NCBI GenBank assembly: GCA_016125475.1
Contig: WGLR01000014.1
Location: 1 to 64,000, forward strand
Length of the DNA: 64,000 nucleotides
Direction of reading: 5' to 3'
Origin: Betaproteobacteria bacterium
Lineage (GTDB): Bacteria; Pseudomonadota; Gammaproteobacteria; Burkholderiales; Ga0077523
A program made the position numbers and the translations under genes. The notes under the pieces are model-generated. The model made no database searches, was not told the origin of the DNA, and worked only from the letters and a program-made list of their open reading frames with translations. Below are positions 50,756-64,000 of the stretch, piece after piece; the stretch's first letter is position 1; every line of letters starts with the position of its first letter.

Positions 50756-52705
50756 ATGCACGACCCCGCCGACCGGGTTGCCAACACGTCCGGCAACCGG
50801 TCCTTCGACGACGTCCTGCGCGTCGACCGCCAGCGCCGGCGCCTGATCGCGGGCGGTCTCGGCGCGACCGCGGCTGCCTTCGTGGGCCTGCCACCTCGCG
50901 CGGCACACGCGACGATCGGCGAGCCGCCCGTCACGTTTCGTGCCGTGCCGGTGTCGACCGAGGACACCGTCCACGTGCCCGAGGGCTACGTCGCCGAAGT
51001 GCTCTTCGCGTGGGGGGATCCGGTCTCGAACGGCCCTGCCTTCGCGCAGGATGCGAGTCAGTCGGCGGAGGATCAGGCCCTGCAGGCCGGCATGCATCAC
51101 GACGGCATGCACTACTTCCCGCTGCCGCCGGATCCCGGCGAGCGCAATCGCGGACTGCTCGCCGTGAATCACGAATACACGGACGACGGCCTGCTGCACC
51201 CGGACGGCATGAAGACCTGGACGGCCGCGAAGGTCCGGAAGTCCCAGATGGCCCATGGCGTGTCGATCATCGAGATCCGCCAGCGCGGCGACCGCCGGTG
51301 GGAAGTCGTGCGCCCCTCGCGCCACGCGCGCCGTATCACGGCGGCCACGCCGATGAGGCTCTCGGGGCCGGCGGCCGGTCACGAACGGCTTCGCACGGCC
51401 GCCGACCCGGACGGCAGTCGCGTGCTCGGGACGCTGAACAACTGCTCGAACGGCTGGACGCCCTGGGGAACCTACCTCACGTGCGAGGAGAACTTCTACG
51501 CGTACTTCGTGAACCGTGGCCGGATTCCGGCGGACCAGCAGCGTTACGGGATCACCGCCAACGGGTTCGGATACCGCTGGCACGAGCACGACGACCGCTT
51601 CGACGCGGCGGCACATCCGAACGAACCGAACCGCTTCGGCTGGGTCGTCGAGATCGACCCCTTCGATCCGGACTCCGTGCCCGTGAAGCGCACGGCGCTC
51701 GGGCGCATCAGCCACGAAGGCGCGGTGCCCGCGATCGCGCGCGACGGCCGTGTCGTGGTCTACCTGGGCGACGACCAGCGCAACGAGTACCTGTACAAGT
51801 TCGTGTCCCGCGGTCGCTACGATCCCGAAGGCGGACGCGCCAATCGGGACCTGCTCGACGAGGGAACGCTGTACGTCGCGCGGTTCGACGACGACGGTAC
51901 GGGGCGCTGGATTCCCCTCGTGCACGGCGGCAACGGTCTGACGCCGGAACACGGATTCCGCGACCAGGCCGAGGTGCTGATCCGCACGCGCCAGGCCGCC
52001 GACCGGGTCGGCGCGACGATGATGGACCGGCCCGAGTGGATTGCGGTGCAGCCGGGCACCGGCCACGTCTACTGCTCGCTCACGAACAACAATCACCGCG
52101 GCGGAACAACGGGCAATGCACCGGACGGCACGACGCGTTCGGGCTCGGCGAGGCCTCCGGTGGACGCCGCGAATCCTCGCCCCGACAACGTCTTCGGACA
52201 CATCGTCCGCTGGCGGGAAGACCGGGACGACGCCAGCGCCACGACCTTTGCGTGGGACGTCTTCGTGCAGTGCGGAGACCCCGGGAGCGCGGACCCCGCG
52301 CGTCGCGGCAACGTACAGGGCGACCAGTTCGCGAACCCGGACGGCCTGTGGTTCGATCCGGACGGTCGCCTCTGGATCGAGACCGACATCTCTTCCAGGG
52401 AACTCGGCATCGGAGAGTTCGCGGTGATGGGGAACAACGCCATGCTCTGCGCCGACCCGGCCACCGGCCTCGTGCACCGTTTCCTCACAGGCCCGCGCGG
52501 CTGCGAGATCACCGGACTCACCCAGCCCCAGGATCAGCGCACGCTGTTCGTGAACATCCAGCACCCCGGCGAAAGCCCGGACGGTCGCAGCGACCCGGAT
52601 CATCCCAAGGCAGTGAGTGCCTGGCCCGATGGCACGGCCGGCGGACGTCCCCGGTCCGCGACGCTCGCGATCCGACGCGAGGACGACGGCATCATCGGAA
52701 CCTGA
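50756..52705 (+). CDS. phoX: Tat-exported PhoX-family alkaline phosphatase
   Basis: 649 residues. A twin-arginine signal (RQRRRLIAGGLGATAAAFVGL) exports the folded enzyme to the periplasm or beyond. The PhoX (DUF839) domain shows GLLAVNHEYTDDGLLHPDG, NNCSNGWTPWGTYLTCEENF, RISHEGAV, GDDQRNEYLYKFVSRG, RPEWIAVQPGTGHVYCSLTNN and TLFVNIQHPGES. PhoX enzymes hydrolyse phosphomonoesters with calcium and iron. AGGAG sits before the ATG. It opens a phosphorus-related cluster; the same landmarks recur in the PEP-CTERM protein at 56427. The gene converges with the BASS transporter gene (7 base gap). Confidence 0.93.
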   Translation: MHDPADRVANTSGNRSFDDVLRVDRQRRRLIAGGLGATAAAFVGLPPRAAHATIGEPPVTFRAVPVSTEDTVHVPEGYVAEVLFAWGDPVSNGPAFAQDASQSAEDQALQAGMHHDGMHYFPLPPDPGERNRGLLAVNHEYTDDGLLHPDGMKTWTAAKVRKSQMAHGVSIIEIRQRGDRRWEVVRPSRHARRITAATPMRLSGPAAGHERLRTAADPDGSRVLGTLNNCSNGWTPWGTYLTCEENFYAYFVNRGRIPADQQRYGITANGFGYRWHEHDDRFDAAAHPNEPNRFGWVVEIDPFDPDSVPVKRTALGRISHEGAVPAIARDGRVVVYLGDDQRNEYLYKFVSRGRYDPEGGRANRDLLDEGTLYVARFDDDGTGRWIPLVHGGNGLTPEHGFRDQAEVLIRTRQAADRVGATMMDRPEWIAVQPGTGHVYCSLTNNNHRGGTTGNAPDGTTRSGSARPPVDAANPRPDNVFGHIVRWREDRDDASATTFAWDVFVQCGDPGSADPARRGNVQGDQFANPDGLWFDPDGRLWIETDISSRELGIGEFAVMGNNAMLCADPATGLVHRFLTGPRGCEITGLTQPQDQRTLFVNIQHPGESPDGRSDPDHPKAVSAWPDGTAGGRPRSATLAIRREDDGIIGT

Positions 52706-52712
52706 CGCGGCG

Positions 52713-53573
52713 TCAGCGCGGGACGAAGCGGCGCCCGTAGAGCATCGCGGGCACGAGCACGCCCGCCTGCACGACGAAGAACACCACCGCGAACGCGAGG
52801 AACTCCAGGCTCGCGAGCACGTTCAGCGCAACCAGGGTCGCGACGCTCAGGCTGCGCGACGGGAATCCAGCAACCATCGCGACCGTCTCGCCGGCGGTGC
52901 ATCGAAGCACCCGGGCAACGACGAGCCCCAGCGCGACGGCCATCGCGGTAAACACCAGGGCGGCCACCACGATCGCGCGGAGGTTCGAGGCGATCGCGTC
53001 GGCCTGCGTCGCCATCACGGTCACCAGCAGCACCACGAGTGCCGCGAGGCTCGCACGTTGCAGCGGAACACGACAACGCGCCGCGAAACGCGGCGCGCGG
53101 TGACGGATCAGCATGCCTGCTCCGATCGGCAGCAGGATGCCCGTGACCACCTGACGCATGACGGGCCCGACCGGAAGGCGTGCGCGCGAGGAATCGCCAT
53201 CCAGCAGGAGGTCGAAGCCCAGCGACGCGATCCAGGGCGTCGTCACGAGCGCGGTCACGCTGGAGACGGCAGTGAGGGTGACCGACAGCGCGACGTCCGA
53301 TCGTGCGAGCAGACAGTAGAAGCTGGAGATCGTCGCCTGCGGCGCGGCCGCGACGAGAATCAATCCTCCTGCCACGACCGGGTCCGGACGCAGCAGGACG
53401 ATGATCGTCGCCCCCGCGATCGGCAGCAGCAGCGTCTGCGCGCCGAGCGCGAGACCCACGTGCGCCGGGTAGTGAAGCACGCGCGCGAGGTCGGCCCGCG
53501 TGAGTTCGAGACCGACGACCGTCATCGCGAACACGATGATGCCCTGCAGACCGCCGTGGACGAGAGCATCCAT
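52713..53573 (-). CDS. BASS/SBF-family transporter
   Basis: 286 residues with about nine hydrophobic helices. APQATISSFYCLLARSDVALSVTLTAVSSVTALVTTPWI is close to the bile-acid:sodium symporter family signature. Substrate is unknown; family members move organic anions and some carry small inorganic anions. It begins 16 bases after the phnE stop on the same strand, so it looks like the last gene of a phnD-phnC-phnE-BASS operon, an unusual addition. Confidence 0.85.
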   Translation of the reverse strand: MDALVHGGLQGIIVFAMTVVGLELTRADLARVLHYPAHVGLALGAQTLLLPIAGATIIVLLRPDPVVAGGLILVAAAPQATISSFYCLLARSDVALSVTLTAVSSVTALVTTPWIASLGFDLLLDGDSSRARLPVGPVMRQVVTGILLPIGAGMLIRHRAPRFAARCRVPLQRASLAALVVLLVTVMATQADAIASNLRAIVVAALVFTAMAVALGLVVARVLRCTAGETVAMVAGFPSRSLSVATLVALNVLASLEFLAFAVVFFVVQAGVLVPAMLYGRRFVPR

Positions 53574-53589
53574 CGGGCCTGTCCGGACG

Positions 53590-54393
53590 TCAGGACGCCA
53601 GCACGCGCGCGCGCAACCGGCTGGACAGATAGTCGGCGGTCATGACCATCGCGAGGATCACGAGGACGCAGGTGGCCGTGTCCCGGTACTGAAACAGCTT
53701 CATCGAACTCACGAGCTCGAATCCGATGCCGCCCGCGCCGATCATGCCGAGGATCGTCGCCGCGCGCAGATTCACTTCGAACCGGTACAGGGTGGACGCG
53801 ATCCACGACGGCACGACCTGCGGCAGCACGCCGAAGACGACGACGAGCGCCGGCCGTGCGCCCGTGGCCCGAAGCGCCTCGACGGGGCCGGGCTCGATCT
53901 CCTCGATCGCCTCGGCGAAGAACTTGCCGAGCATTCCGGCACCGTGGATGGACAGCGCCAGCACCCCGGCAAACGGGCCGAGGCCGACCGCCGCCACGAA
54001 GACGAGGGCGAAGATGATCTCGTTGATGCCCCGGAGCGCATTCAGAACCTGACGCATCAGGTGGAAGACGGCCGGATTCGGGCTGAGGTTGCGCGCCGCG
54101 AAGAAGCAGAGCGGCAACGCGAGCAGGACACCGAGCAGCGTTCCCCAGATCGCGATCTGGACGGTTTCGACGACCGGCCGAACGAGCCGGTCGGCGAACG
54201 CCCAGTTGGGCGGCAGCATGCGGGACACGAGATCGACGACCCAGGGAAGCCCGCGCACGAGCTCGATCGGACTGAGTCCGATGCCGCGCGCGCTCCAGAC
54301 GAGTACCGCGACGGCGATACCGAGTGAGGCACACCACGCGAGGACACGGCGGGCCGTCCATGCCCCGCCCATCAGAACGCGCACCTTCCTCAC
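53590..54393 (-). CDS. phnE: Phosphonate/phosphite ABC transporter permease
   Basis: 267 residues, inner-membrane subunit. Six or so helices with the transport-coupling loop EAIEEIEPGPVEALRATGARPALVVVFGVLPQVVP matching the PhnE family, and LGMIGAGGIGFELVSSM near the end. GTG 54393 overlaps the phnC stop (GTGA). The antisense track ORF 53500..54327 is a shadow. Confidence 0.93.
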   Translation of the reverse strand: MRKVRVLMGGAWTARRVLAWCASLGIAVAVLVWSARGIGLSPIELVRGLPWVVDLVSRMLPPNWAFADRLVRPVVETVQIAIWGTLLGVLLALPLCFFAARNLSPNPAVFHLMRQVLNALRGINEIIFALVFVAAVGLGPFAGVLALSIHGAGMLGKFFAEAIEEIEPGPVEALRATGARPALVVVFGVLPQVVPSWIASTLYRFEVNLRAATILGMIGAGGIGFELVSSMKLFQYRDTATCVLVILAMVMTADYLSSRLRARVLAS

Positions 54394-55184
54394 GGTACGG
54401 CCTCCCCGACAGGGTCGAGGACGGTGCGCTCGCCCGTGCGCGTGCGTGCGACGACGAGCCCGGGGTAGATGGCGGCGAGCGCGTCATCGTCGAGAGCCGC
54501 GGGGGATCCGGAAAACACCACCCGCCCGCCCTCGATGCCGACGATGCGGTCCGCGAACTCGATCGCGTACTCCACCTGATGCAGATTGCAGAGCACGGCG
54601 ATGTCGAGTTCGTGCGCCGCACGCCTGAGGTCGTCCAGCACGAGCCGCGCGGTCTTCGGATCGAGGCTCGCCACGGGCTCGTCGGCGAGAATCACCTGGG
54701 GCTCCTGCGCGAGAGCGCGCGCGATCCCGACGCGCTGCTGCTGCCCACCCGACAGACGGTCGGCACGCTGTCCGGCCCGATCGGCGAGCCCCACGCGCGC
54801 CAGGGCTGACAGTGCAATGTCGATGTCGCGGCGCGGGAACACCTGCAGCACGGCGGCCGCGAACGGCATCGTCGCGAGACGCCCGGTGAGCACGTTCTTC
54901 AGGACCGACAGGCGCGGCACGAGGTTGTGATCCTGGAAGATCATCCCGACGTGCCGGCGCACTTCACGCAGCGCGTGACTGGCACGCGGCACAGGCCTCC
55001 CGGCGATGCGGACCTCGCCGGCGGTCGGTTCGGTGAGACGGTTCACACAGCGGAGCAGCGTCGACTTCCCGGCCCCCGACGGGCCCAGGACGACACACAT
55101 CTCGCCTGCCTTCACGTCGAGGTCGACGCCCCGCAGCGCCGGAAACGCGCCGTAGGTCTTCTCGAGCCCGCGGATCTCGATCAC
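54390..55184 (-). CDS. phnC: Phosphonate/phosphite ABC transporter ATPase
   Basis: 264 residues. Walker [25 protein letters not shown]-loop [24 protein letters not shown], signature [19 protein letters not shown], Walker [14 protein letters not shown] and H-loop CNLHQVEYA are all PhnC-like. It is hidden in the long track ORF 54390..56306, whose upstream part is a frame through phnD. The true GTG start at 55184 overlaps the phnD stop (GTGA). Confidence 0.94.
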
Positions 55185-56062
55185 TTCATCTTGCGCAGAT
55201 CGAGATTGAGCACCTTTGCCGTCTCGCGGACCACGGCGTAGTTCGCGTCCCTCGCCGGGACCCAGCGCGTGATGACGGTCCCCTTGCTCCACGGAATGTC
55301 GTGCATCGCGGCGAAGGCGGCCCGGATGCGCGCCTTCAGCGGCTCCGGCAGGTCGCGCCGCATGACGACCGGCGCGCCGGGGATCGGATCGGACTTCCAG
55401 ACGATCACGATCTCGTCCGCCTTGACCATGCCGCGCGCGATCGCGGCATCCAGCAGTGCGTCGGCCACGGCGGCGGCGTCGACCTTGCCGTTCTGCACCG
55501 CGATTACGGAGGCATCGTGACTGCCCGCGAAGATCGCGCGCAGGTCGCGGTCCGGATCGAGGCCCGCCCGGATCATGCCGGTCTTCGGGAACAGGTGTCC
55601 GGACGTCGAACTCGGGTCCACGAACGCGAAGGTCCGGCCCTTGAGGTCCGCGAGCGTGCGGATGCCGTGGTCCTTGCGCGCGACGATGAGCGAGTGATAG
55701 CTCGCACCCTGGCGCTTCGTTTCGGGGACCGCGACCGGATCGACCGCGGCGATCGACGCCGCGAGCACATAGGAGAACGGCCCGAGCAGCGCGACGTCGA
55801 GCCGCCTGGCCCGGAGGGCCTCGATCACGCCGTTGTAGTCGGTCGCGACGAACGGCCTCACGTCCATGCCGACGCCATCGCGGAGCGCACCGATCAGCGC
55901 CTCGTTGTCCGCGATCATGAGCCGGGGATCCTCCGCGGGAACGAGCCCCACGTTGAGCACATCCCCTGCCCGGGCCGGCAGCGCGGCTGCCAGACCAAGA
56001 GCGACTGCCGCGCCCACGCACCGGCGGCGGCCCCCAGAAAACGGCCAACGTGCGTCTCCCAT
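55181..56062 (-). CDS. phnD: Phosphate/phosphite/phosphonate-binding protein
   Basis: 293 residues, periplasmic. The signal region (GGRRRCVGAAVALGLAAALPARAG) precedes LNVGLVPAEDPRLMIADNEALIGALRDGVGMDVRPFVATDYNGVIEAL and the ligand loop DPSSTSGHLFPKTGM typical of PhnD. Affinity for phosphonate, phosphite or phosphate cannot be told. ATG 56062 has GGGGAGAG upstream; the track start 56197 adds unlikely residues. No C-P lyase or phosphonatase genes follow, so the imported compound may be phosphite or phosphate. Confidence 0.93.
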   Translation of the reverse strand: MGDARWPFSGGRRRCVGAAVALGLAAALPARAGDVLNVGLVPAEDPRLMIADNEALIGALRDGVGMDVRPFVATDYNGVIEALRARRLDVALLGPFSYVLAASIAAVDPVAVPETKRQGASYHSLIVARKDHGIRTLADLKGRTFAFVDPSSTSGHLFPKTGMIRAGLDPDRDLRAIFAGSHDASVIAVQNGKVDAAAVADALLDAAIARGMVKADEIVIVWKSDPIPGAPVVMRRDLPEPLKARIRAAFAAMHDIPWSKGTVITRWVPARDANYAVVRETAKVLNLDLRKMK

Positions 56063-56426
56063 CTCCCGGCTCTCCCCTAGCGTCTTCGCATTCTCGAGTC
56101 GATCGGCGAGGCCACCGAATCGCCGTCCGGCGTGCCCGGGAAAGCCCCGGCAATCGCGGTTCACCCCGACGCCGCAGGCCTTCCCGGCTGAAAGCATACG
56201 CGTTCCCGGAATTCCTTGCGGACGGGCTGTGGGCGAAGAGACACGACCCTCGACGACAGTCGGACGAGCGGCCCGATGGCTGGTCCCAACTGACTATGCG
56301 GGACATACCCCACGGTCATGCCACCGCCAACGCGCGGCGATAGGGTCGGGACAGCGTCGGGACCGAGCGTGTCGGTAAAGGCGCACAGACAGTTTCGTTC
56401 AAATCCTCTTCTTCGGGAGACTCATC
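56063..56426. other. 364-base divergent intergenic region
   Basis: This lies between phnD and the PEP-CTERM gene at 56427 and must hold both promoters. I see no Pho box, sigma-54 site or strong hairpin. There is a loose run of GTCGG units near 56345-56380 and GGGAG before the plus-strand gene. Confidence 0.6.
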
Positions 56427-57800
56427 GTGACACAACGCACCCGCGTGGCCGTTGCGGTCGGGCTTGCGCTCGCCGCCTCTCAGGCCCCTGCCGCAGACAA
56501 CACCTACTTCGACAACTTCACTCCCCTCACGTCGTCCGTCCCGGCAGGCTCGCTGCCGGAAGCGACGCCGCTCGTGCTCTCGTCGCCGAACTTCTCGCAG
56601 AAGACCCTCTTCGCGAACGACCTCGGCGCCCGGAACGGTGGCGTCAGGCTCGGCGACAACTGGGACATGAACACCGTGAACGAAACGGGCCCGGACGCCG
56701 GCCGTTACCTGTTCCATCCCTACGAGACGGGCATGGGCGGCGTGTTCCGCGGTGATCTCACGACGGGGATGGCCGTCTCGATCGTGCCGGAAGGCACGCA
56801 GGGCTTCCGCTCGGGCGACGCCTCGCGCTGGACACCCTGGGGCACCTACATCACGGCCGAGGAATCCTGGGGCACGGGCAGCACGCACGGCCGCCTCTTC
56901 GAGGTCACGAACCCGCTCGCCGAGCCCGGTTCGGTGAACTTCGTACAGCGGAACATCATCCCGCGCGTCTCCCACGAGGGCCTCACGTTCGACGCCCAGG
57001 GCAACCTCTACTTCATCGACGAGGTGAACGGCGGCGCGCTCTACAAGTACACCTCGCAGACGCCGAACACCTCGACGTTCTTCGATGCGGGCCAGACGTT
57101 CGTGCTGAAGACCGCGGGCGGCAACAACGAGCGCGCCACGGGCATGGCGGTCTGGGAGCCGATCACGGACACGAGCGGCATCCCGCTCGACTTCACGAAT
57201 GTCGTGAACGGCGGCGGCACGCTGGCCATCGACGGTCGCGCAGCCGCCGACGCGTTCGGTGCGACGGTCTACAACCGGCCCGAGGATCTCGAGATCCAGA
57301 CGCTCGCCGACGGCAGCCAGATGCTCTACATGGTCACGACCACGAACGACGAGGTCTATTCGATCAGGCTCACCGACGCGACGAACGCGGTCGTGAACCG
57401 CTTCGTGTCGCAGGACACGATCGATCAGGCCACCGGCGCGGCCGTTGGCGGTGTCTTCAACGACCCCGACAACCTCGCGATCGACGCGAACGGCAACATC
57501 TACGTCGTCGAGGATCAGCCGGCAGGCGTGGCCGACATCTGGTTCGCGATGGATGCCGACCGCGACGGTGTCGCCGAATCCGTCGGCCGCTGGGCCACGA
57601 TGTCGACCGAGGGCGCCGAGCCGACGGGCCTGTACTTCGATCCGTTCGACCCGAACGTTGCCTACGTCAACATCCAGCACACGGGCAGCGACATCGATCG
57701 CACCATCCTGATCAGCGCCGTTCCCGAACCCGGTACCTACGCGATGATGTGCGCCGGTCTGGGCCTCCTGGGTCTGCTCGCACGACGTCGCCGCGGCTGA
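56427..57800 (+). CDS. PhoX-like protein with PEP-CTERM sorting tail
   Basis: 457 residues. Signal peptide MTQRTRVAVAVGLALAASQAPAA, then a PhoX-like (DUF839) body with WTPWGTYITAEESWG, PRVSHEGLTFDAQGNLYFIDEVNGGALYKYTS, NRPEDLEIQ, DNLAIDANGNIYVVED and AYVNIQHTGSD; several are recognisable in the Tat-type PhoX at 50756. The C-terminus is a full PEP-CTERM signal: VPEPGTYAMMCAGLGLLGLLARRRRG (motif, helix, Arg-rich end), which predicts exosortase processing and surface or exopolysaccharide association. Phosphatase activity is inferred from homology. GGGAG precedes the GTG start by about nine bases. A terminator hairpin follows at 57836. Confidence 0.88.
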   Translation: MTQRTRVAVAVGLALAASQAPAADNTYFDNFTPLTSSVPAGSLPEATPLVLSSPNFSQKTLFANDLGARNGGVRLGDNWDMNTVNETGPDAGRYLFHPYETGMGGVFRGDLTTGMAVSIVPEGTQGFRSGDASRWTPWGTYITAEESWGTGSTHGRLFEVTNPLAEPGSVNFVQRNIIPRVSHEGLTFDAQGNLYFIDEVNGGALYKYTSQTPNTSTFFDAGQTFVLKTAGGNNERATGMAVWEPITDTSGIPLDFTNVVNGGGTLAIDGRAAADAFGATVYNRPEDLEIQTLADGSQMLYMVTTTNDEVYSIRLTDATNAVVNRFVSQDTIDQATGAAVGGVFNDPDNLAIDANGNIYVVEDQPAGVADIWFAMDADRDGVAESVGRWATMSTEGAEPTGLYFDPFDPNVAYVNIQHTGSDIDRTILISAVPEPGTYAMMCAGLGLLGLLARRRRG

Positions 57801-57835
57801 TCCCCGGCCCGCCCGGACGACATCGGGCAAGCCGC

Positions 57836-57864
57836 GAGGAAGGCCGCCGCAGGCGGCCTTCCTC
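57836..57864 (+). terminator. Hairpin after the PhoX-like PEP-CTERM gene
   Basis: GAGGAAGGCCGCC-GCA-GGCGGCCTTCCTC is a perfect 13 bp stem 36 bases past the stop. No T-run follows, so termination is likely but of a GC-rich type. Confidence 0.7.
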
Positions 57865-58010
57865 GCCGTCACGGGGACGAGAAGACCGGTGCGTCGCGCA
57901 TGATCCACCTGGATCGTCGGTCGGATCTTCGCTGCAATCTCCCCGTCATGGGGTCGTGCGAAGCTCCTTCGCCCTGCCCCACCCATTCCGGAACCGTTCC
58001 GCAGACGCGC

Positions 58011-58637
58011 ATGACCACCCCCGTTCTGAAGGGCGTCGAGCCGCTCTTCTTCACGCCGCTGGTTTCCTTCCAGATCCCCGATTCCGAGGCGCTGAACCGC
58101 CGTCTGCTCGAAGAGATCGGCATGCGCCGGGGCACATCCGAGGGGGTTCACGTGAGCAATCAGGGGGGGTGGCACTCGGAACCGGACCTGTTCGAACGTC
58201 CGGAGCCGGGCTTTCGCGCGCTGTGCACACACATCCTCGCGGCGCTGGGCAGCGCGACAGCCGCGATCGCGCCCGGGTTCGACATGCGTTCGGCGGCCGT
58301 GCATTGCGAAGGATGGGTCAACGTGAACGGCCCCGGCGCGTACAACACGCCCCACGACCATCCGGGGTGGGCATGGTCCGGCACCTATTACGTGCGGGTA
58401 CCCGCTGACACCACCGGACGCAGCGGGTCATTCGAACTCATCGACTCCCGTACGAACGTGCGCGTCGTGACCGTGGAAGGGGCCAACTGCTTCGCGGGCA
58501 AGTACACGGTCCGGCCGCAGGCGGGACTCATGATCATCTTCCCGTCGTACGTGCGCCACTGGGTCTACCCGAACGAATCCCGGGACGAACGCGTGTCCAT
58601 CGCATTCAACGCCCGCTTTGCGCGTCGCAATCGGTAG
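58011..58637 (+). CDS. 2OG-Fe(II) oxygenase, TIGR02466-like
   Basis: 208 residues. The iron ligands are visible as HDH in NVNGPGAYNTPHDHPGWAWSGTYYV and a distal His in IIFPSYVRHWVYPN, with Arg in ERVSIAFN for the 2-oxoglutarate carboxylate. The HPG and PSYVRHWVYP spacing matches the TIGR02466 family of putative oxygenases. The substrate is unknown. ATG 58011 is the chosen start; the track's 57900 start would run through the terminator region. It lies between two PEP-CTERM genes. Confidence 0.8.
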   Translation: MTTPVLKGVEPLFFTPLVSFQIPDSEALNRRLLEEIGMRRGTSEGVHVSNQGGWHSEPDLFERPEPGFRALCTHILAALGSATAAIAPGFDMRSAAVHCEGWVNVNGPGAYNTPHDHPGWAWSGTYYVRVPADTTGRSGSFELIDSRTNVRVVTVEGANCFAGKYTVRPQAGLMIIFPSYVRHWVYPNESRDERVSIAFNARFARRNR

Positions 58638-58825
58638 GGAAGGAAAGCAAGAGGAAGAAAGGGGCGAGGCGACGCTCCGCTGATCCATTCGGCGCATGAA
58701 ATGACTTCATGGCGTCAAAAGACTGCATTGACGCGTCGAGATAATCGGATCGGGGCCATGCACCGTCAGCTAGCCACCAGAAGAATATGTTCCCTGTCTT
58801 TCTATACACTTTCGGGAGATCTTCC

Positions 58826-60445
58826 GTGACCAACTTCAAGCTTTCCGCCATCGCACTCGCGATCGCCGCCGTCGCACCGGCACACGCCGCAAGCATCACG
58901 GGTCCGAGCAGTTCCCAGGCTCCGTACCTGCAGGCCGTGGCCCCCAACGTCGACATCGGTTCCGTCCTCACGTCGGGCGACCTCGTCGGTTCGTACCGCA
59001 TGGGCGGCATCCCCGACGGCCTCGGTGCGTTCGACAACGGCAACGGCACGTTCACGCTGCTCATGAATCACGAACTCGGCGACACGCTCGGCGTGACGCG
59101 CGCGCACGGCGCCATCGGTTCGTACGTGTCCGAGTGGGTGATCAACAAATCCGACTTCTCCGTCGTGAGCGGACGTGACCTCATCCAGAGCGTCTACACC
59201 TGGGACACCGCGACCCAGTCCTCCAGCCTCACGCCCACGGTCGTGTCGTTCAACCGGTTCTGCTCGGCAGACCTGGCCCCCGTCTCCGCGTTCTACAACC
59301 CGACCTCGGGTCTCGGCACGCAGTCGCGCATCTTCATGAACGGCGACGAGAGCGGCTCGACCGGCCTTGCGATGGCGCACGTGGCCACCGGCGCCGGCGC
59401 GGGCAACAGCTTCGTGCTGGGCAAGTTCAACACGGACACGAACGGTTCCGGCGGAACGGACCACGGCGGCTGGGAGAACCTCCTCGCGAACCCGCTCGCG
59501 CAGGACAGGACCGTCGTGATCGGCAACAACGACGGCGGCTCGGGAATCATGAGGAATGCGCTCGCGGTCTACGTCGGCACCAAGACGAACGCCGGCACCG
59601 ACGCCGACCGCGCGGGTCTCACGAACGGCACGACGAAGTTCGTGAACCTCGACGGCTTTGCCGCCGAGGCCCCGGACGCCGATCGCCACACGGCCATCAC
59701 GAACGGTACGCGTTTCACGCTCAGCGACTCGGCCTCCACGGTGTTCTCGCGTCCCGAAGACGGCGCCTGGAACCCGAACAACCCGAACGAGTACTACTTC
59801 GTGACGACCGACACGCGCGACACGACGGACCTCACGGGCGGTACGAGCAAGGGCGGCACGCGGCTCTGGAGACTCACCTTCGACGACATCACGAACCCTG
59901 ATGCCGGCGGCAAGATCGACATCCTCATCGACTCGTCCAACATGCCGGGCGGCGTGGGCGTCGACAAGCCGAACATGTTCGACAACATCTCCGCGAACGC
60001 GGACGGCACGATCACGTTGCTCGAGGACGTCGGCGGCGCCGATCACAACGGCAAGGTCTGGCAGTTCGACCCGGCCAGCGGTCAGCTCACGATGCTCGCG
60101 AAATTCGACCCCGCGCTGTTCGGTGACATCGTGAACGGCTCGTTCGTCGCCGGTACGCACACGAACGACGAGGAAACGTCCGGCGTGATCGACCTCACCA
60201 ACGTGCTCGGCTTCAACGATGGTGCGTCGTACCGTCTGCTCGTTGCGCAGGACCACTCCGATGCCCAGCACCTGATCGACATCGGCGCCATGGATCCGAA
60301 CGCGAATCCGGCCGAGATGATCGAGGGTGGCCAGCTCCTGGTCATGCGCATCGCGCCCGTACCCGAGCCCGAGACCTACGCGCTGATGGCCGCCGGCCTC
60401 GGCATCGTCGGTGCCGCGGCTGCGCGTCGTCGCAAGCACAAGTAA
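58826..60445 (+). CDS. PEP-CTERM protein, distant PhoX/DUF839-like body
   Basis: 539 residues. Signal peptide MTNFKLSAIALAIAAVAPAHAA, then a repeat-rich body of NGDESG, HGGWENLLANP, NHELGDTLG, FSRPEDGAWNPNNPNEYYFVTTD and TLLEDVGGADHNGK that recalls beta-propeller phosphatases; the EDGAW and NHE landmarks resemble those of PhoX but less closely than the 56427 protein. C-terminal PEP-CTERM tail: VPEPETYALMAAGLGIVGAAAARRRKHK. GTG 58826 has GGGAG eight bases upstream; the track's 58787 start would be less suitable. Function is inference. Confidence 0.82.
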   Translation: MTNFKLSAIALAIAAVAPAHAASITGPSSSQAPYLQAVAPNVDIGSVLTSGDLVGSYRMGGIPDGLGAFDNGNGTFTLLMNHELGDTLGVTRAHGAIGSYVSEWVINKSDFSVVSGRDLIQSVYTWDTATQSSSLTPTVVSFNRFCSADLAPVSAFYNPTSGLGTQSRIFMNGDESGSTGLAMAHVATGAGAGNSFVLGKFNTDTNGSGGTDHGGWENLLANPLAQDRTVVIGNNDGGSGIMRNALAVYVGTKTNAGTDADRAGLTNGTTKFVNLDGFAAEAPDADRHTAITNGTRFTLSDSASTVFSRPEDGAWNPNNPNEYYFVTTDTRDTTDLTGGTSKGGTRLWRLTFDDITNPDAGGKIDILIDSSNMPGGVGVDKPNMFDNISANADGTITLLEDVGGADHNGKVWQFDPASGQLTMLAKFDPALFGDIVNGSFVAGTHTNDEETSGVIDLTNVLGFNDGASYRLLVAQDHSDAQHLIDIGAMDPNANPAEMIEGGQLLVMRIAPVPEPETYALMAAGLGIVGAAAARRRKHK

Positions 60446-60455
60446 CACGTCTCAC

Positions 60456-60485
60456 GCCATGGCCGGCATGGCTGCCGGCCATGGC
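60456..60485. repeat. 13-bp perfect inverted repeat after the PEP-CTERM gene
   Basis: GCCATGGCCGGCA-TGGC-TGCCGGCCATGGC is a perfect 13 bp stem with a 4 base loop, ten bases past the stop. It has no T-run itself and is followed by a second hairpin with a T-run. Confidence 0.8.
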
Positions 60486-60496
60486 AGATGCATGAC

Positions 60497-60526
60497 AAGG
60501 GGGAGGTCCGTTCGGCCTCCCCTTTT
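60497..60526 (+). terminator. Intrinsic terminator of the second PEP-CTERM gene
   Basis: AAGGGGGAGGTCC / GGCCTCCCCTTTT forms a GC-rich stem with one bulged G and ends in TTTT. With the hairpin just before it, this gives a double terminator. The rest of the 326 base gap to 60771 holds no other recognised element, apart from the AGGAG of the next gene. Confidence 0.85.
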
Positions 60527-60771
60527 CCATTCATGGTTCCGCCCGTCTGCCACACCCGCACTCGGCGACGTGCGGCGTCAGGTCTCCTCATGTCACCGCC
60601 TTCTCCCCGAGTAAGTCTGCGGAAAGCGCGGCTTCATTCCGGATACATAGTCAAAACCTAGAGTGATCGCGCGGCAGCCACTTGCACGGCTCGAGCGTCG
60701 GAAACGGCACACGCGTTGTCGCGAACGGGCATGCCGCATCTTCGCAGAGGTCAACCGATCAGGAGAACCGA

Positions 60772-62610
60772 ATGATCATGAGTGGACAATTCAAGCTTCA
60801 CCGGTGCGCCATCGCGCTCGCCGCCGTCTGGGGCGTCATGGCGCAGGCGCACGCAACGACGACCCCGATCGAGCACGTCATCGTGGTCGTTGGCGAGAAC
60901 CACACGTTCGACAACGTGTTCGGCGTCTATCGCCCGCATCGCACGCAGTCGATCATGAACCTGCTTTCAGAGGGCATCGTGAAGGACGACGGCACGCCGG
61001 GCCCGCGCTTCCAGGTCGCTGCCCAGCGCCCCGCGACCCAGACGGGCAGCTACTCGATACAGCCAACGACCGGCGCGCCGTATGCCTCGCTCCCGCAGCC
61101 CGACACGACGTACGCGACCGGACAGCCCGGAAATTCGCCGGACCCCCGGTTCCCGGCCGACATGCCCAACGGGCCGTTCCAGATCACCCGGTACGTGCCC
61201 TACAGCGCGTTCATGGGCGACCCGATGCACCGCTTCTTCCAGATGTGGCAGCAGGTCGACGGCGGCAGGAACGACCTCTTCGCGTGGACTGCGATGACGG
61301 CCGGCATCGGCAATCACAACGATGGCTTCGGAACGGGACCCGACGACACCCACCAGGGCGGTGTCGCGATGGGTTTCTACAACATGGAAACGGGTGATGC
61401 GCCGCTGTTCAAGGCGATGGCCGACAACTACGCCATCAGCGACAACTATCACCAGGGCGTGATGGGTGGCACGGGCGCCAACTTCCTCATGCTCGTGACG
61501 GCCGACGCGGCCTTCTACAACGTGGGTGGCACGGCGACCGTTCCCCTCACCGCCATCAACATGTATGGCGTCACCGCGAGCCAGGTCGAGAACCCGAACC
61601 CGCAGGCAGCCGGATCGAACACCAACTGGTACACGGAAGACGGTTACCGGGGCGGCTCGTACGTCAACTGCGCGGACGAGTCCCAGCCTGGCGTGGGCGA
61701 GATCGCGAAGTATGTCCGTGCGAACGGCGCCAGGACCAATTGCGCGCCCGGCCACTACTATCTCCTGAACAACTACAACCTCGGCTACAAGGCCGACGGG
61801 ACACCGGTCGACCTCACGGCGAGCCCGTTCACCCTGCCCCCGCAGCCCGCGAGCCTGCCCACGATCGCAGACGAACTCTCCGACAACGGCGTTTCGTGGA
61901 AGTATTACTCGGGGGGGCGCGGCAACGGCACGAACACGAGCGGTGACTATTGCGGGATCTGCGATCCTCTCACGGGGTTCACGTCAATCATGACGGACCC
62001 GTCGAAGCGCGCGAACCTCCAGGACGTCAATTCGCTCTATGCGGACATCGCATCGGGCAACCTTCCGTCGGTCTCGTTCGTGCGTCCGCCCGAGATCATG
62101 GCCGGGCACCCCGCGAACGCGACGCTCCCGCTCTACGAGAACTTCTCGGCGGACCTCGTGAACATGGTGCACAGCCACCCGGATCTCTGGAAGTCCACCG
62201 CGATCATCATCACGACGGACGAAGGCGGCGGCTACTACGATTCGGGCTACGTGCAGCCGGTGGACTTCTTCGGCGACGGCACGCGGATTCCGCTGATCGT
62301 CGTCTCACCATACGCGCGCAAGGGCCACGTCGACCACGTCTACAACGATCACGCGTCGGTGCTCAAGTTCATCGAACACAACTGGGGGCTTGGCCCGCTG
62401 TCTTCCCGCAGCCGCGACAACCTCCCCAACCCGGTGCAGTGGGGCACGAGCTACAAGCCGCAGAACGCGCCGGCAGTCGGCGATCTCATGACGCTGTTCG
62501 ACTTCAGCAACTATCGCGACAATGCGCCCGCAATCACGGTCTCGCAGTCCGACGGACGCGACCGTGACGAAGGCGAACGTCGCGAGCACGCCTGGCGTCG
62601 TCACCGCTAA
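60772..62610 (+). CDS. Exported phosphoesterase (acid phosphatase/phospholipase C-like)
   Basis: 612 residues. Signal peptide (CAIALAAVWGVMAQAHA), then the phosphoesterase family core: IEHVIVVVGENHTFDNVFGVY (metal and nucleophile region), SDNYHQGVMGGTGANFLML, ITTDEGGGYYDSGYVQPVDFFGDGTRIPLIVVSPYARKGHVDHVYNDHASVLKFIEHNWGL. Family members hydrolyse phospholipids or phosphomonoesters. The C-terminus (DGRDRDEGERREHAWRRHR) lacks PEP-CTERM features. AGGAG precedes ATG 60772; the track start 60682 is upstream of it. It closes the phosphorus-related cluster. Confidence 0.9.
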   Translation: MIMSGQFKLHRCAIALAAVWGVMAQAHATTTPIEHVIVVVGENHTFDNVFGVYRPHRTQSIMNLLSEGIVKDDGTPGPRFQVAAQRPATQTGSYSIQPTTGAPYASLPQPDTTYATGQPGNSPDPRFPADMPNGPFQITRYVPYSAFMGDPMHRFFQMWQQVDGGRNDLFAWTAMTAGIGNHNDGFGTGPDDTHQGGVAMGFYNMETGDAPLFKAMADNYAISDNYHQGVMGGTGANFLMLVTADAAFYNVGGTATVPLTAINMYGVTASQVENPNPQAAGSNTNWYTEDGYRGGSYVNCADESQPGVGEIAKYVRANGARTNCAPGHYYLLNNYNLGYKADGTPVDLTASPFTLPPQPASLPTIADELSDNGVSWKYYSGGRGNGTNTSGDYCGICDPLTGFTSIMTDPSKRANLQDVNSLYADIASGNLPSVSFVRPPEIMAGHPANATLPLYENFSADLVNMVHSHPDLWKSTAIIITTDEGGGYYDSGYVQPVDFFGDGTRIPLIVVSPYARKGHVDHVYNDHASVLKFIEHNWGLGPLSSRSRDNLPNPVQWGTSYKPQNAPAVGDLMTLFDFSNYRDNAPAITVSQSDGRDRDEGERREHAWRRHR

Positions 62611-62775: not shown

Positions 62776-63396
62776 TCACGACGAGGCGGACTCCCCTGCT
62801 CGCGGGGGCTCGCACAGGTCGACCTCGAGCACCTCGTCGCCGCCGGACGTCCTCGCTGCCGTTTCGGTGGCCGCCCGGATCACCCTGACTCCGACGGTGA
62901 CGCCCTGCGCAAGCGCGGCATCGCGAACGCGCACGAGATCCGCGTGCTCCGCCTTGACCGCGACGAGCCGCTCGCCCGCCCGGATCTCCTTGATTCCCAC
63001 CTGCTCTTCCAGGATGACCGCCGGCAGTCGGACACGCAGACGGCGCCGGGTCGACGTGATGTCGAAATGACGGTGCCGGGACTCCAGCACCCGATAACCC
63101 CAGACACCGAGATCGAGCCCGAGGATCAGCGCAATGCGCTCCTCGAGCGAGGCGTCGACGTCGACGAGCAGCACGTGCCCGGGGCGCCCCTTCTTCCCGA
63201 GGCTCGCAAGGACCTGGAGGTTGCGGGCGCCGGCGGCGTGAAGGCGCTCTGCGACGTCCTGGAGCACTTCGCCGGTGGCATCGTCCACCTGCACGAGCAT
63301 GAGAATCGTGTCAGCCACGGCAGACGGTGTTCCGGCGACGCGCAGGAGCGCCGTCCATCCGGGCGAAAGAGGTGTGCCGCTGCGGGCGTGCTTCAC
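62776..63396 (-). CDS. LarC C-terminal-domain-like protein (DUF111)
   Basis: 206 residues. TILMLVQVDDATGEVLQDVAERLHAAGARNLQVLASLGKKGRPGHVLLVDV and GLDLGVWGYRVLESRHRHFDI match the C-terminal half (LarC2) of the nickel-pincer cofactor synthesis protein LarC, including the A-x(n)-KKGRPG pattern. The LarC N-terminal half is absent from this ORF. GTG 63396 lies three bases past the upstream stop, so the pair is translationally coupled. No larA, larB or larE was seen in the window. Assignment by eye only. Confidence 0.6.
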   Translation of the reverse strand: MKHARSGTPLSPGWTALLRVAGTPSAVADTILMLVQVDDATGEVLQDVAERLHAAGARNLQVLASLGKKGRPGHVLLVDVDASLEERIALILGLDLGVWGYRVLESRHRHFDITSTRRRLRVRLPAVILEEQVGIKEIRAGERLVAVKAEHADLVRVRDAALAQGVTVGVRVIRAATETAARTSGGDEVLEVDLCEPPRAGESASS

Positions 63397-63399
63397 TCG

Positions 63400-64000
63400 T
63401 CATGGCGCGTGCCGCGCGATGCGTGCCGCCATTCGGGCAGCCGCCTCCGCACGCTGTTTAGCACCGGGAATTCCCGCGCTCACGAACGCGCCCGCGACCG
63501 CGGCCTCGGCGGCTTCCTCGGGTGGCGCGACCCCGAGCGCGACCGCCATGGCGGCGGGCACGGTCACGTTCTGGATCACGTTGCCCGCGACCAGGAGTTC
63601 TCCGACCGCCGGTGCCGCGAGCGTCACCGCGGGAGCGAGTTCCGCGAGTTCGCCGGTCGACACACGCGGGACGATGTCGTCGACGAAGTGAGGCAGACGG
63701 GTGGTGACGCCATCGACCTCCACTTCGACATCGATCGACGGATCGAACGCGAGCCAGCGCCGCGCCATCCTGCTCGTGCGGCGTGCGCCGGCCTCCACGC
63801 GCGTGATCCGGATCTCCACCGGCTTTCCGAGCGTTCCGGCATGGCGCACACCGAGCCGCCGTGTGATCGTCTCGAGTCGCTCGCGATCGAGTTCCTCCAC
63901 GACGTCGCGGACCGACGATCCAGCGGTCAGGCGGTCGTAGGCCAGGGTCGCGCGGTGCATCAGCGCGGACGTCCGACCCGGCTCGGTCGCGGCCAGGAGA
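63400..64000 (-). CDS. Unrecognised protein, N-terminus beyond window edge
   Basis: About 200 residues visible; the frame stays open to the edge (LLAATEPGRTSALMHRATLAYDRLTAGSSVRD), so the track's ATG at 63960 may be internal. Visible sequence includes RITRVEAGARRTSRMARRWLAFD, LPHFVDDIVPRVSTGELAELAPAVTL, AGNVIQNVTVPAAMAVALG and a C-terminal Ala/Arg helix (GAKQRAEAAARMAARIARHAP). I do not recognise the family. It is immediately upstream of the LarC-like gene and probably in one operon with it. It does not resemble the usual LarC N-terminal half. Confidence 0.6.
   Translation of the reverse strand, partial: LLAATEPGRTSALMHRATLAYDRLTAGSSVRDVVEELDRERLETITRRLGVRHAGTLGKPVEIRITRVEAGARRTSRMARRWLAFDPSIDVEVEVDGVTTRLPHFVDDIVPRVSTGELAELAPAVTLAAPAVGELLVAGNVIQNVTVPAAMAVALGVAPPEEAAEAAVAGAFVSAGIPGAKQRAEAAARMAARIARHAP

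Follow-up and report, generated by a model that had tools for sequence, protein, structure and literature searches.

The window considered here is a 64,000-nucleotide stretch of contig WGLR01000014.1 (assembly GCA_016125475.1), from a betaproteobacterium of the order Burkholderiales. Within it lie the genes of two proteins, here called PhoX-PEP and Fam2 (Table 1), that both end in a PEP-CTERM tail and whose sequences support membership of the PhoX superfamily. What appears to be new, in a modest sense, is the occurrence of PEP-CTERM-tagged members of this superfamily, one of them belonging to a broad family that is for the most part unannotated and probably has an oxygenase dedicated to it. 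PhoX represents a major natural route to organic phosphate, and these iron-calcium enzymes are counted by their twin-arginine translocation (Tat) signal and a Pfam match. A PhoX-like family such as Fam2, over half of whose sampled members are missed by the PhoX profile, would imply an undercount of environmental phosphatase potential if PEP-CTERM or type IX tags do direct it to the surface.

PEP-CTERM tails and the divergent PhoX-PEP protein

The tail motif, comprising a PEP box, a hydrophobic stretch and a basic end, is complete in both proteins. An earlier note on this DNA, drawn from the letters alone, had read both as PEP-CTERM-tailed, and profile searches bear this out (PF07589, 6e-9 for PhoX-PEP and 8.1e-8 for Fam2; both above the TIGR02595 cut-off). 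The note's reliance on an exosortase likewise holds: the organism's own genome (4.88 Mb, 96.7% complete) encodes a single one, exosortase A (XrtA; TIGR03109, 308 bits against a cut-off of 208), situated inside a complete XrtA/PEP-CTERM exopolysaccharide cluster (locus L078, 7995-19355, on G000:C11). Judged by their sequences, the two tails are genuine PEP-CTERM signals, with a matching sorting and exopolysaccharide system in the same genome. The full motif and the cluster thus resemble the known PEP-CTERM/exosortase A system, whereas the PhoX-related cargo sets the present case apart and makes the role of exosortase cargo testable. In the open-access literature searched, outside which most subscription papers lie, PhoX was joined neither with PEP-CTERM nor with exosortase.

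PhoX-PEP matches the Pfam PhoX family (PF05787) over residues 136-420 (9.4e-20; 71.7 bits against a cut-off of 24), as the earlier note had expected of it, and P. fluorescens PhoX at 9.9e-9 (phmmer). Whereas PhoX (P. fluorescens 3zwu/4alf) is exported by Tat, PhoX-PEP and Fam2 have a Sec-type signal and a PEP-CTERM tail; the N-terminus of PhoX-PEP, MTQRTRVAVAVGLALAASQAPAADN, contains no twin arginine by eye, hence no Tat signal. Full-length orthologues occur in two of 200 genomes of the order, one from the same genus (G396) and one from another family (G383). Both are 55-56% identical to PhoX-PEP and have complete tails. Remoter relatives (about 34-41% identity over most of the length), read whole, bear no PEP-CTERM tail. 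PhoX-PEP had no match among the viral contigs searched, and a profile of alignment A1 had none among PDB sequences.

When PhoX-PEP is mapped on the P. fluorescens PhoX chain, 12 of 14 landmark residues are identical, D292 is replaced by Glu and Cys179 is missing. The G396 and G383 orthologues share both changes and keep the other landmarks. We take Cys179 to be the thiolate iron ligand of PhoX. With the iron-ligating cysteine missing, the chemistry of PhoX-PEP may differ from that of PhoX, whose iron is ligated by a thiolate (PMC4223295); D292 and R385 are among the PhoX residues named in the Psip1 report discussed below (PMC11098088). The metal site of PhoX-PEP is probably modified, and we conjecture that the nearby conserved Asp131, near-invariant in alignment A2, serves as a substitute, by analogy with PhoD, an unrelated family that divides into Cys and Asp subfamilies (PMC4223295). 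Together, PhoX-PEP (Cys lost, Sec-type) and Fam2 (Cys kept, Sec-type) make it testable whether Tat export is a requirement for iron centres of the PhoX type.

Fam2 proteins and a linked oxygenase

The window copy of Fam2 is too divergent to match Pfam PhoX on its own. An alignment-based scan of genomes gathered 322 relatives from Proteobacteria, Verrucomicrobia, Planctomycetes, Cyanobacteria, Bacteroidetes, Actinobacteria and other phyla, although random genomes seldom carry the family (no more than 5 of 200 in the order). The Pfam PhoX profile matches 27 of 60 aligned members, at best with 1.2e-11. In a profile-profile comparison (hhalign) with the PEP-CTERM tails removed, Fam2 matched the PhoX-PEP family at E 9e-12 using an eight-sequence alignment and at 1.5e-6 using the 60-sequence alignment, against E 0.04-0.06 for an unrelated PEP-CTERM beta-propeller and at most 19 bits, versus 56, for column shuffles. 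The ‘distant PhoX-like body’ seen in the earlier note thus gains indirect support from the matching relatives and from a profile match whose controls lie near chance. At the level of sequence, homology of Fam2 to PhoX is well supported.

Paired by eye along common motifs, E96, C159, E188, E230, D249, K266, R322, E324, D399, E463 and H490 of Fam2 parallel the P. fluorescens PhoX landmarks E90, C179, E194, E273, D291/292, K300, R385, E387, D479, E532 and H551; these Fam2 residues, together with D325, E413 and D414, are invariant in all 60 members. The AlphaFold model of Fam2 is confident and beta-rich (predicted local distance difference test, pLDDT, 90; predicted template modelling score, pTM, 0.87), and its Foldseek search gave no informative viral match. 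The nearest precedent is Psip1 of marine picocyanobacteria, a PhoX-like beta-propeller phosphatase missed by standard annotation and having nearly the same metal-site residues. Psip1 differs in having Lys for R385, where Fam2 has an invariant Arg, and the section of its report consulted mentions no PEP-CTERM tail (PMC11098088).

Export tags were compared across 80 Fam2 loci, PEP-CTERM-like tails being called by a simple pattern. Such tails occur at 16 of them, in Proteobacteria, Verrucomicrobia and Planctomycetes; a Bacteroidota member (L150) has a type IX secretion tail, and cyanobacterial Fam2 is a domain in giant multidomain proteins. The domain is fused to PhoD in Cyanobium (L095, 1974-8336) and to an Exo_endo_phos (endonuclease/exonuclease/phosphatase) domain with RTX repeats in Nostoc (L097, 6752-15016). 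The lineage-differing tails suggest that Fam2 is an extracellular enzyme which exchanges its export tag according to the host, and the fusions hint that Fam2 may cleave phosphate esters. As to recurrent neighbours, TIGR03118 beta-propeller genes are found near Fam2 in several loci (L087, 12424-13857; L088, L089, L112, L117, L120, L125), one such gene bearing a PEP-CTERM tail, and in Bacteroidota L133, L142, L152, L156 and L159 a gene that by eye resembles cytochrome-c peroxidase lies directly 3' of Fam2.

In the window, Fam2 is preceded by the gene of a 2-oxoglutarate (2OG)-Fe(II) oxygenase with no signal peptide (by eye). It resembles other TIGR02466/PF13759 oxygenases in its score above the cut-off and its conserved His-rich motif and C-terminal His, and differs in belonging to a separate clade so far seen only beside Fam2 genes. 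Of the 80 loci, 8 have a TIGR02466 gene within 2 kb of Fam2. It mostly follows Fam2 directly; the Schlesneria gene is encoded on the opposite strand, and that of the window precedes Fam2. Given that 45 of 200 genomes of the order hold any TIGR02466 homologue, we estimate that far fewer than one linked locus would be expected by chance. The linked oxygenases are 47-59% identical to the window oxygenase, against 36-42% for the best unlinked homologues, and form a single branch (support 98/99) that spans Proteobacteria and Planctomycetota.

Among about 680 sampled genomes, the linked clade was not found outside Fam2 genomes. Across 141 genomes of the Roseateles-type family its sole occurrence is in the Fam2 genome on which that search was centred, and in 20 Fam2 genomes it occurs only at the Fam2 locus, except in Methylobacter psychrophilus, where it stands at the end of another contig, as would fit a Fam2 locus split between contigs. 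This absence away from Fam2 is suggestive and not final, because the linked cases were found via Fam2, which few random genomes contain. The linked state requires five changes on the Fam2 tree; the pair was therefore gained or lost repeatedly. Two additional, distant TIGR02466 homologues (32-34% identity) lie elsewhere in the organism's own genome (G000:C20:144706-145296 and G000:C33:53218-53538).

Genomic linkage makes the oxygenase a probable dedicated partner of Fam2. As the PEP-CTERM tail is absent from four linked Fam2 proteins (L086, L093, L096, L100), it is not a likely substrate. Residues correlated with the oxygenase in the 60-sequence alignment reveal no clear substrate site, the best candidate being N287, present in all linked Fam2 and a third of the others. 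A far-reaching version strikes us as quite improbable in its entirety: Fam2 proteins would form a widespread, mostly unannotated class of surface phosphatases, and a dedicated TIGR02466 oxygenase would hydroxylate their precursors in the cytoplasm, ahead of export by Sec and sorting by exosortase or the type IX system. If so, a protein hydroxylase would take part in maturing an extracellular metalloenzyme. Alternatively, the oxygenase might act on a small organophosphorus molecule, such as a phosphonate imported by PhnCDE, so that its pairing with Fam2 would reflect a shared pathway instead of Fam2 modification. Phosphonates are substrates of some 2OG oxygenases, and the window has a PhnDCE operon close by, with carbon-phosphorus (C-P) lyase absent, but the fetched flanks of other loci with both Fam2 and the oxygenase hold no phn homologue; we consider this alternative somewhat unlikely. 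The link with Fam2 offers a new lead on TIGR02466, a family without known function that appeared in one paper of the open-access literature searched, on a cyanophage genome.

A proposed role at the cell surface

In the explanation we favour, PhoX-PEP and Fam2, as PhoX-superfamily beta-propellers, would leave the cytoplasm by Sec, have their PEP-CTERM tails handled by exosortase A, reach the outer surface or the exopolysaccharide, and hydrolyse phosphate esters with the help of a metal centre located where the propeller opens. The released phosphate would be taken up by ordinary transporters, and the cytoplasmic oxygenase would serve Fam2, either hydroxylating its precursor or converting an organophosphorus compound on which Fam2 acts. 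We infer phosphatase activity, a surface location in this organism and an oxygenase that serves Fam2. Surface phosphate release appears likely, and we regard the explanation as a whole as reasonably probable.

Several observations weigh against it. The AlphaFold model of PhoX-PEP, made from a two-sequence alignment, is unusable (pLDDT 32), and aligned landmark residues are no proof of catalysis. Fam2 matches a two-sequence alignment of canonical PhoX weakly (E 0.001-0.026), so its relation to PhoX runs through the PhoX-PEP-type branch. The top 50 Foldseek hits of the Fam2 model in the PDB are generic beta-propellers (template modelling score by query length at most 0.38) and include no PhoX, so that Foldseek lends no support to close structural identity with PhoX. 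Finally, a Pho-box scan gave a chance-level result (3 loose matches versus 2.2 expected), with none at the phnD/PhoX-PEP promoter region. Of the other promoter scans, that for sigma-54 (PrsR-type) sites remained at chance level and that for sigma-70 gave no match.

The generic Foldseek hits, the iron-ligand Cys lost in PhoX-PEP and a gene neighbourhood that is not conserved would also suit PEP-CTERM propellers that are non-catalytic matrix or adhesion proteins reusing a PhoX-derived fold, their phosphorus-gene neighbourhood being accidental. For many proteins with PEP-CTERM tails, no enzymatic activity is known. We nevertheless judge this unlikely: the landmark acids, Arg, Lys and His are invariant in 60 diverse Fam2 proteins, PhoX-PEP and its orthologues keep the landmarks save C179 and D292E, and the Cyanobium and Nostoc fusions join Fam2 to PhoD and a nuclease-type domain, respectively.

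The earlier note had further described a phosphorus-acquisition island, which comparison between genomes does not support as one functional unit. In the congener G396, the PhoX-PEP orthologue stands alone about 1.3 kb from a threonine-dehydratase gene (78.7% identical), and homologues of phoX, phn, the oxygenase, Fam2 and PF04185 are all missing from the fetched contig stretch around it. In G383 the orthologue lies within a run of PEP-CTERM genes, and Fam2 in other genomes is accompanied by the oxygenase and not by phn genes. Because the G396 and G383 neighbourhoods differ from that of the window, the gene set of the window is not a conserved operon but an assemblage, at what seems to be an older site of PhoX-PEP. 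The idea that the phosphatases feed PhnCDE in a dedicated manner is unsupported. Adjoining the G383 orthologue is a gene for a Phytase-like (PF13449) protein with a PEP-CTERM tail (L073, 9018-10445).

True phosphoesterases might also serve a purpose other than phosphate nutrition, namely the remodelling of surface phosphorylated exopolysaccharide or phospholipid. In line with this are the XrtA system built into an exopolysaccharide cluster, the run of PEP-CTERM genes around the G383 orthologue, the recurrence of TIGR03118 PEP-CTERM genes near Fam2 and the failure to find a Pho box. The window context of PhoX, PhnCDE and an exported phosphoesterase speaks for nutrition instead, as do the cyanobacterial Fam2 fusions to PhoD and nuclease-type domains, which suit nutrient scavenging, and we consider remodelling as the role rather doubtful.

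Genes of the window

Every gene named in the earlier note was found in its place, and Pfam and NCBIfam profiles confirmed the families (Table 1).

Table 1. Features of the PhoX-PEP and Fam2 region, in window positions
Position	Strand	Feature	Profile support
50756..52705	+	Canonical PhoX; twin-arginine type N-terminus (RQRRRLIAGG)	Pfam PhoX 2.1e-185
52713..53573	-	BASS/SBF-family permease, last gene of phn operon	PF01758 2.7e-23
53590..54393	-	PhnE permease	TIGR01097 3.3e-91, above equivalog cut-off
54390..55199	-	PhnC ATPase	TIGR02315 2e-93, above equivalog cut-off
55181..56197	-	PhnD-type phosphonate/phosphite/phosphate binding protein	TIGR01098 6.5e-71, above subfamily cut-off
56427..57800	+	PhoX-PEP: Sec-type signal, Cys-less PhoX-family beta-propeller, PEP-CTERM tail (VPEPGTYAMMCAGLGLLGLLARRRRG)	PhoX 9.4e-20, PEP-CTERM 6e-9
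58011..58637 (open frame from 57900)	+	2OG-Fe(II) oxygenase, Fam2-linked clade	TIGR02466 92 bits vs cut-off 62.5
58826..60445	+	Fam2: Sec-type signal, remotely PhoX-like beta-propeller, PEP-CTERM tail (VPEPETYALMAAGLGIVGAAAARRRKHK)	PEP-CTERM 8.1e-8
60682..62610	+	Exported phosphoesterase (phospholipase C / acid phosphatase superfamily)	PF04185 3.9e-58

The canonical PhoX matches P. fluorescens PhoX 3zwu at 1.7e-182 (phmmer) and keeps all landmark residues; Pfam PhoX genes number two in the organism's own genome, both in this window. The transport genes resemble the PhnCDE system in PhnE and PhnC, and differ from it in a binding protein that falls under the PhnD equivalog cut-off (TIGR03431, 232.1 against 261.1 bits), in the extra BASS permease and in the lack of PhnJ. 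The absence of C-P lyase stated in the earlier note extends to the whole genome, as PhnJ had no match in the 96.7% complete assembly. The true start of the binding protein may lie near 56059. The exported phosphoesterase, which probably starts at ATG 60772, has no PEP-CTERM tail and scores under the TIGR03397 cut-off. Beyond it, at 62776-63960 on the minus strand, two genes resemble, by eye, split halves of LarC (nickel pincer cofactor).

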